From NCBI GenBank assembly GCA_017508895.1, contig JAFWRA010000069.1:1-5497 (forward strand): a stretch of DNA of 5,497 bases. Direction: 5' to 3'. The position numbers and the translations under genes were made by a program. The DNA is from Bacteroidales bacterium. GTDB taxonomy: Bacteria; Bacteroidota; Bacteroidia; Bacteroidales; F082. Shown here piece after piece: positions 3,394-3,880 of this stretch; the stretch's first letter is position 1, and each line of letters begins with the position of its first letter. The notes beneath the pieces were generated by a model. The model worked only from the letters and a program-made list of their open reading frames with translations. It did no database searches and was not told the origin of the DNA.

Positions 3394-3633
3394 TTAGTGC
3401 TTGAACTCAAACAGGTAGAGGTCGTGCAATTGGTGGTCGGGTGTTTGTAGGATAGCCTTGTAATTCATGCCCTTTTCAGTCATGAGCCATTCGGTGTACT
3501 CGTCGACGAACTCCTTGATTTCGGATTGGTTCATCTTGATGTAGATCAAGTTCAGTTTGGCTTTGGCTTCGGTTTCTGTGAGGCCGTCATTTTTGATGAT
3601 GTCTTCTGTGAGTTTGTCCATGAATTTTGCCAT
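3394..3633 (-). CDS. Small hypothetical protein, 79 residues
   Basis: I do not recognise a family. The frame runs from ATG 3633-3631 to TAA 3396-3394. The product is rich in charged residues and predicted helical throughout (MDKLTEDIIKNDGLTETEAK, EIKEFVDEYTEWLMTEKGM), with no signal peptide, membrane segment, cysteine or known motif. It should be a soluble cytoplasmic protein. The gene is convincing because it has its own well-placed promoter (-7 box at 3663-3670, CTTG at 3691-3694) with a leader of about 25 bases, ends just before a hairpin, and has no credible competing ORF. It stands alone, convergent to the EcsC-like gene and divergent from the candidate small RNA, so context gives no clue to its role. 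Confidence 0.7.
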   Translation of the reverse strand: MAKFMDKLTEDIIKNDGLTETEAKAKLNLIYIKMNQSEIKEFVDEYTEWLMTEKGMNYKAILQTPDHQLHDLYLFEFKH

Positions 3634-3734: not shown

Positions 3735-3763
3735 TTGTAGAATTGAAAAAAATAGTATTTTTG
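3735..3763 (+). promoter_or_regulatory. Promoter of the candidate small RNA
   Basis: TATTTTTG at 3756-3763 is a full match to TAnnTTTG. A TTG at 3735-3737 lies 18 bases upstream, slightly short of the usual 19-21 spacing. The predicted start is near 3767. The box points away from the divergent 79-residue gene and into a region with no convincing ORF. Confidence 0.6.
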
Positions 3764-3766
3764 CAG

Positions 3767-3880
3767 CAATTCTCTTTTTTAAGAGGAGGAGGATGTAGTT
3801 GATTTTCAACTACAAAAAGGTTTCATAAATTTTGGTTTTTGGTTCTTGAAAACCCTGGCTTTTGCCGGGGTTTTCTTGTT
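3767..3880 (+). ncRNA. Candidate small structured RNA of about 110 nt
   Basis: A consensus promoter at 3735-3763 is followed by three hairpins and a terminator with no convincing ORF between. Hairpin 1 (3772-3785) is CTCTT, loop TTTT, AAGAG. A purine tract GAGGAGGAGG then leads to ATG-TAG at 3792-3797, a start codon followed at once by a stop. Hairpin 2 (3794-3814) has a perfect 9-base stem, TGTAGTTGA, with a TTT loop. An AU-rich single-stranded stretch runs from 3815 to 3847. Hairpin 3 (3848-3875) is the terminator. The RNA would be free-standing rather than a leader, because the terminator closes it and the next features downstream are tRNAs on the other strand. I do not recognise it as 6S, SRP, tmRNA or RNase P RNA. 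Ends are inferred from promoter and terminator. Confidence 0.5.
3848..3878 (+). terminator. Strong intrinsic terminator of the candidate small RNA
   Basis: A 12-base stem, GAAAACCCTGGC (3848-3859) with GCCGGGGTTTTC (3864-3875), has one T·G wobble and a TTTT loop, with T-rich sequence in and after the 3' arm. The A run before and T run after also allow it to work on the minus strand, though less plausibly. An upstream GGTTTT at 3834-3839 could compete for AAAACC at 3849-3854. Confidence 0.8.

Follow-up and report, generated by a model that had tools for sequence, protein, structure and literature searches.

In the window analyzed (i.e., the whole stretch of 5,497 nucleotides), the plus-strand region at positions 3768–3880 very probably encodes a free-standing, terminated small RNA of no known family that is common to many relatives. 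Sequence comparison supports this reading with a conserved promoter box, a conserved core, a terminator, covarying stems, and a near-universal single copy. The gene is conserved and structured, nearly always occurs once per genome, and in distant relatives often lies between a divergent histidine kinase and pgi. It is fairly probable that the product, of about 110 nt, represents a Bacteroidales family of trans-acting sRNAs whose core pairs across mRNA start regions and blocks ribosomes. The features discussed below are as follows.

3394–3633, minus strand: 79-aa ORF, the divergent neighbor of the RNA in the window's group (beside the RNA in 31 of 48 RNA loci)
3735–3763, plus strand: promoter, with TTG at 3735–3737 (−33 position) and the −7 box TATTTTTG at 3756–3763, based on the sequence and an alignment with eight relatives
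3768–3880, plus strand: predicted small RNA of about 110 nt, its 5′ end placed by promoter spacing and its 3′ end by the terminator
3769–3794, plus strand: hairpin 1 (5′ hairpin), from the fold; the sequence differs in the window copy and its sibling L170
3795–3813, plus strand: hairpin 2, from the fold and from covariation in 9 of 9 pairs
3815–3852, plus strand: conserved core AAAAGGTTTCATAAATTTTGGTTTTTGGTTCTTGAAAA, whose last 5 nt overlap the terminator stem; identical in all nine first copies
3848–3875, plus strand: intrinsic terminator with a 12-pair stem and a 4-nt loop, then a T-rich stretch; from the fold and covariation

The gene content of the window is bacterial, with an MgsA/RarA-type ATPase, a 242-aa ORF, the divergent 79-aa ORF, an S51 peptidase, the start of a cation ATPase, and two minus-strand tRNA genes (Glu and Arg). 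Going by their family matches, we take the first of these to be RarA and the S51 peptidase to be pepE-like (pepE). Two small ORFs are located on the minus strand: one at 266–610 with a weak match to the STAS-like DUF4325, and one at 628–1131 with no match in Pfam or NCBIfam. The intergenic segment at 2511–2565, which separates the ATPase gene from the 242-aa ORF, is repeat-like and contains two near copies of GGGG(T/C)AGACCC..GTGTCTGCCC. The RNA lies between the 79-aa ORF, which has no match in Pfam or NCBIfam, and the tRNA genes. The sibling locus of the window, L170 in genome G898, shares 97.1% identity over 2,425 bp. The preliminary description of this DNA had proposed looking for a conserved position beside the tRNAs; this position is not fixed, as the RNA is ~3.6 kb (L008) and ~4.4 kb (L019) away from them in relatives, and the tRNA neighborhood is incidental.

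The promoter consensus given in the accessible text of PMC7366714 is TAnnTTTG / TTTG. The box TATTTTTG lies at 3756–3763, as had been proposed, and is conserved: by eye, seven of the eight first relatives have the same box and L008 has TACTTTTG. A TTG at the matching −33 place was seen by eye in five of the eight (L002, L003, L018, L019, and L022), is absent in L011 and L014, and is out of register in L008. The segment at 3767–3880 folds at −41.3 kcal/mol, compared with −23.0 (sd 3) for 200 dinucleotide shuffles (z = −6.09; none of the 200 as good), with both hairpins and the terminator at 3848–3875 in the places first described. This terminator has the most pairs (12) among the 10 terminator-like sites in the window, a site count that carries no weight by itself because shuffles give 6.9 (sd 2.8). 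Lone promoter-like or terminator-like matches are indeed common in the window, as would be expected of a chance or decayed element that resembles a gene without any function. Against this reading stand the fold z of −6.1, the covariation, and the family-wide conservation; we regard its probability as negligible, and sequence comparison refutes it as far as comparison can.

The 5′ hairpin of the window copy is atypical. The 13 other copies among 14 aligned carry GGTTCTTATCA(T/A)..GAYC at this place, L170 has the window's form, and L093, L095, L097, and L165 also deviate from the common form. The hairpin contains a purine run, GAGGAGGAGG at 3783–3792, which is Shine-Dalgarno-like yet paired in the predicted fold and which, among the copies compared letter by letter, was seen only in the window and L170.

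A covariance model (R1) built from 13 copies, with the window left out, scored the window copy at 87.8 bits (3774–3880). In 36 fitted copies (33 distinct), 97.9% of the cells are paired, and both sides have changed in 18 of the 27 pairs, compared with a shuffled mean of 8.3 and 6–10 in slid controls; these figures lean toward structure because the alignment was fitted to the structure model and 13 of the 36 copies also built it, and the gap to the controls is still wide. Changes on both sides were found in 5 of 6 pairs in helix 1 of the family and in 9 of 9 pairs in hairpin 2. The compensatory changes that had been anticipated in the stems are thus present (18 of 27 pairs vs. the shuffled 8.3). 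In the Rfam search only tRNA reached the gathering score, in a release that may lack FopS and GibS models. The Pseudomonas rnk leader (RF01772, 24.6 bits, threshold 55), PsrR1 (RF02701, 24.5 of 42 bits), and MicX (RF01808, 21.5 of 75 bits) all scored below their gathering thresholds and were rejected as identities. The initial view that the RNA belongs to no known family therefore agrees with the Rfam result. Among the findings that had been named as evidence against the proposal were a lack of conservation and a match to a known family, and neither was obtained: the box, core, and stems are kept in relatives.

Judged by sequence conservation, the heart of the RNA is the linker core between hairpin 2 and the terminator, not the hairpins. 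The early description, with its emphasis on the stems, overlooked that the linker is the most conserved part; the hairpins are the variable one. In the core segment AAGGTTTCATAAATTTTGGTTTTTGGTTCT (AAGG to TTCT), compared across 25 copies (types A to D), 27 of 30 columns are invariant and the other three are at least 90% conserved, although finding the copies by similarity favors a conserved core in the distant ones; the flanks change while the core stays. Among 14 copies in the window's setting, the core differs only in L092, by a single base at the 3′ end. Its reverse complement, AACCAAAAACCAAAATTTATGAA, is an A-rich leader with AUGAA that resembles a Bacteroidota start region. The core folds on itself weakly: an AU/GU helix is possible and the mean unpaired probability is 0.45. 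This internal helix is beyond the covariation test because the core hardly varies.

The core is also partly open in two frames (by eye), which would fit a small coding or dual-function RNA. We consider this highly improbable, since the core is invariant even at synonymous sites, the start codon ahead of it is not kept (by eye), and the terminator loop length varies among copies, which also argues against coding. The earlier statement that the region has no convincing ORF is in line with these patterns.

For the distribution of the gene, 80 relative loci were gathered via the pepE-like protein, mostly from uncultured Bacteroidales or Bacteroidia and many from rumen samples. With a 151-nt query, eight of these loci gave long copies (74.6–80.6% identity over 139–151 columns), and L052 gave a 78-nt partial match. 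With a 118-nt query, 21 of the 27 genomes reached through these loci match, and the best match in each is the RNA copy. At E 0.001, the order sample gave matches in 19 of its 393 genomes. Among these, 11 are RNA-like (G003, G375, G312, G128; loci L115–L120 and L126); the other eight match over a short stretch, which is near an ORF start in L114, L122, L125, and L127 and was not recovered with the core query in L121, L123, L124, and L128. In a related bacterial family, 89 of 173 genomes have the gene at E ≤ 1e-8, with one match in 88 of them and two in G843. In the class sample, the core with one mismatch was found in 4 of 395 genomes, as pattern matches alone (L151–L153 included). The order, family, and class samples together indicate that the RNA is confined to part of Bacteroidales, as far as sampled. 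The open literature consulted on Bacteroides sRNAs, sRNAs linked to glucose-6-phosphate isomerase, and RprY does not describe it, and the supplementary lists for B. thetaiotaomicron might hold a distant homologue; as far as searched, the family is new.

The genomic neighborhoods fall into two groups. In 31 of 48 RNA loci the 79-aa and 242-aa ORFs adjoin the RNA, a setting that is part of the type A label, and no pgi or kinase match was found within 2–3 kb of sequence. Of the other 17 loci, 10 have pgi next, in the same orientation as the RNA, and 13 have a divergent sensor histidine kinase ahead of the RNA. Types A and B have the 5′ hairpin, core, and terminator in common, and types B, C, and E have the core and the kinase-pgi setting in common, so the chain of homology looks continuous. 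The 10 of 17 loci with same-strand pgi would fit a terminated leader or attenuator of the downstream gene, pgi in the ancestor. Against this reading, pgi has its own TAnnTTTG/TAnnTTCG-like box after the terminator in L094, L096, L098, L099, L100, and L168 (by eye), and the window's group, with no pgi found within 2–3 kb in its 31 loci, keeps the RNA all the same. Directly downstream of the RNA, the window has no gene on the same strand. We therefore consider a leader very unlikely, and for the window it is largely refuted. With its own promoter box and terminator, the RNA would be closed off from the surrounding genes, as had been proposed.

A survey of pgi in the order of G295 gave matches in 131 of 149 genomes, and 30 of the matched loci were read, two of them without upstream DNA. 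The core (at most one edit) was found in four: three (L331, L332, and L339) are the places of L116, L117, and L126, and L343 is new. A divergent kinase was present in 10. All eight type E loci (L115–L120, L126, and L343) have a tandem TTAAC repeat (TTAAC-N5..7-TTAAC or a near form) ahead of the promoter. The repeat was found in none of 32 type A loci (window included), four type B, five type C, and one type D, and it is present in all six kinase-pgi loci without the core (L340, L344, L345, and L352–L354). Possibly, these repeats are a candidate operator of the neighboring OmpR-family regulator. The response regulator beside the kinase in L098, whose gene is cut by the locus end, matches RprY best, at 242.6 bits, below the 370-bit cut-off. 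The kinase-pgi intergenic regions of L340, L344, L345, L352, L353, and L354 contain a diverged G/U-rich RNA-like gene with a terminator (by eye). Such genes may be relatives with different seeds. From these patterns, we infer that the RNA probably originated as an output of a two-component locus, which it would have left in the lineage of the window's group. The link to the kinase and pgi in distant relatives suggests a role in stress or central carbon control.

In the mechanism that we favor, the RNA would be transcribed from its own housekeeping-type promoter and end at its own terminator, with hairpins 1 and 2 and the terminator serving as structural caps. The 30–38 nt core between the caps would act as an extended seed, the complement of an A-rich leader plus AUGAAA, and would anneal over the start region of target mRNAs to exclude ribosomes, like GibS and FopS in Bacteroides. 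Transcription, base-pairing, and translational repression are what we infer. In favor of the model stand the family-wide presence, the covariation, the conservation of the core amid changing flanks, its start-like reverse complement, the motif that it has in common with the FopS seed (by eye), the reported binding of FopS and GibS to start regions, and the phage leaders described below. The model is weakened by the target searches described below, which gave no conserved chromosomal target and a null enrichment in G312, and by the weak self-folding of the core. It is further weakened because the top duplex in G011 involves a leader that is repeat-like and the viral 18-mer is no commoner than its control.

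Several chromosomal candidates were tried and rejected. The top duplex in G011 involved an HHH-domain-like protein, and its strong pairing comes mostly from a repeat-like leader. This gene was matched in 26 of 28 genomes, and its start was identified in 22 of the 26 loci (none in L230, L231, L235, and L236). Seven of the 22 have both the repeat-like leader and a strong match (six at −27 to −30 kcal/mol and L221 at −24.6); L234 (G024) reaches −27.8 without such a leader, and most other loci are not strong. The motif CGAC(A/G)GGCTCAA..TGAGC(C/T)TGTCGAAGGGCCC is found ahead of the start codon in 7 of the 22 orthologues (L211–L214, L216, L221, and L223). A TonB-dependent receptor, matched in 23 of 26 genomes, has a 15-nt match over the AUG in G011 (−24.3), and none of the 27 other loci is below −19.1. 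For pgi (matched in 26 of 28 genomes), all 26 leaders give only −7.3 to −17.5. The 79-aa neighbor gives −6.1 to −16.2 in the 25 of 32 loci with a rule-found start; the rule found none in seven loci, another ORF in L159 and L161, and an earlier in-frame start in L088 and L164. The sites in L129 and L130 lie inside other-strand coding sequence (by eye). There is thus no conserved chromosomal target among the HHH protein, pgi, the TonB-dependent receptor, and the 79-aa neighbor.

Enrichment among start regions was uneven. In a first run on 643 start regions of G011, the top-10 mean was −25.2, compared with −22.4 (sd 1.06) for 40 shuffled cores. A second run used a 32-nt core and 60 shuffles on two partial genomes, G011 (644 genes, 777 kb) and G312 (674 genes, 800 kb). 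Shuffles reached the real core in G011 in 0 of 60 for the top-10 mean, 2 of 60 for the number below −18, and 10 of 60 for the mean; the corresponding values in G312 were 27, 25, and 18 of 60. The G312 values are unlike those of G011, so the enrichment was not reproduced.

Searches for antisense sites gave few places. A 23-mer (at most three mismatches), sought in 17 genomes, occurred at four places besides the RNA gene and its control at none, and a 21-mer across the AUG gave nothing beyond the RNA genes. A 20-mer in 12 genomes gave 14 places beyond the RNA genes, compared with 11 for a reversed control that is partly self-similar. These 14 include six leaders (L373, L375, L379, L380, L382, and L386), four promoter overlaps, and L374, L378, L381, and L384. 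The four overlaps (L376, L377, L383, and L385), located before a 438–441-aa ORF, were rejected as targets, because a match that overlaps the promoter box should be outside the RNA. The plasmid and phage records listed (20 of 41 and 20 of 87, respectively) included no clear match; the lowest E among them was 0.01, for a Staphylococcus plasmid gene.

The exact antisense runs of at least 18 nt that were read outside the RNA gene in RNA-carrying genomes are at eight places (L102, L103, L105, L106, L107, L130, L382, and L386). All except L130 precede an ORF, and six of these seven are in prophage- or element-like settings. The site in L102 precedes a small HTH-like gene next to an integrase, and that in L105 precedes an unclassified 40-aa ORF. 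Those in L103, L106, and L107 are before a 52-aa ORF (51 aa in L107) followed by PAPS-reductase and ParB-like genes, as classified on the L106 proteins. As a conserved target, the leader of this PAPS-reductase cluster was rejected, the site being present in L432 and in none of the 15 other relatives.

As a target, the best candidate by comparison is the leader of a prophage head-maturation protease, which the 20-mer search found in G898, the sibling genome of the window, and twice in G013, where the protein matches PHROG 53 (phage head-maturation protease; 4.9e-37). The G898 leader has one mismatch within the first 18 nt, and its predicted duplex with the core has 18 consecutive pairs, G-U included. 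Six distinct leaders read AACCAAA(A/G)ACCAAA(A/G)TTTTT or, in L429–L431, AAAAACCAAAATTTTTTT, with the site between a TAnnTTTG box and the ATG. A leader like AACCAAA(A/G)ACCAAAATTTTT between promoter box and ATG was seen in L379 (G898), L382/L386 (G013), L427, L428, L448, and L429–L431. The proteases that share the leader have 56–80% protein identity to that of L379. Relatives of the protease found by protein alone (L428, L448, and L429–L431) keep the site. They include three of the six distinct leaders, those of L428, L448, and L429, whose pairing is −24.5, −28.6, and −20.2 kcal/mol, equaled by 1, 0, and 0 of 300 shuffled cores, respectively. Among 149 start regions of viral pieces, six are at −20 or below, of which four are head-protease leaders (one leader counted twice) and the remaining two are both at −20.4.

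The exact 18-mer antisense site is not enriched in viral contigs, with 10 stretches compared with 15 for a rearranged control (copies of a single gene account for 7 of the 15, and one sequence is shared by 2 of the 10), and it is near an ORF start in 4 of 10 compared with 8 of 15. L114 and L122, from genomes without a detected RNA copy, have comparable one-mismatch runs ahead of genes that look ordinary. Given this control and these runs, it is possible that the core merely mirrors an A-rich translation enhancer. The idea that a core-genome Bacteroidales sRNA, derived from a two-component/pgi locus, pairs with prophage leaders in the same genome, either silencing them or being used by them, is quite unlikely in our estimate; it is weakened by the position of L130 inside other-strand coding sequence and by L114 and L122. 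If such a link to mobile elements is true, the expression of prophage genes in rumen bacteria would be under the control of an sRNA encoded on the chromosome. The prophage leaders could also be used as first reporters for pairing.

The lack of a conserved chromosomal target in these searches would also be expected if the G/U-rich core docks an RNA-binding protein (e.g., RRM-1), which it titrates or guides, with no mRNA pairing. Thirty contiguous conserved nucleotides are long for a pure seed, and an RRM_1 protein is present in all 18 genomes tested, compared with 2 of 14 named control genomes. Furthermore, the RRM protein RbpB prefers single-stranded regions of sRNAs, according to the portion of PMC11697453 available. 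This reading is opposed by the anti-start-codon form of the core, by the TTTCAT-N14-GGTT that the core and the reported seed have in common (by eye), and by the long antisense sites at ORF starts in RNA-carrying genomes. We consider it unlikely as a full account, and protein binding and pairing are compatible with each other.

The pairing mechanism that we favor has precedents in Bacteroides, which has no obvious Hfq or ProQ homologue according to the accessible part of PMC7366714. The RNA adds a conserved family with a precise seed to a group with few characterized sRNAs. MasB, as described in the available text of PMC10994844, is an intergenic Bacteroides sRNA of ~100 nt that represses an mRNA by pairing; by this description it is set apart, because its conservation is narrow and its predicted pairing site falls within the coding region, ~40 nt in. 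For both FopS and GibS, pairing across start regions has been reported (PMC11697453 and PMC7366714, as far as the accessible texts go). GibS of B. thetaiotaomicron is likewise intergenic and terminated, with a long conserved seed, which is reported to pair at start regions, whereas by description its seed is in the 5′ portion and its promoter motif is PM2 (PMC7366714). FopS is an RbpB-associated family with 12–15 copies per genome (PMC11697453), unlike the RNA studied here, which is nearly always single copy. Both have a canonical promoter, an intrinsic terminator, and TTTCAT-N14-GGTT (by eye) in an extended seed, which in the RNA studied here is a proposed one that would face start regions; within the seed text available, this is the only part clearly in common by eye, and the rest differs. 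The FopS seed is in a single-stranded 5′ stretch, whereas the core described here is internal, with two covarying hairpins on its 5′ side. By analogy, this RNA may work like GibS and FopS.
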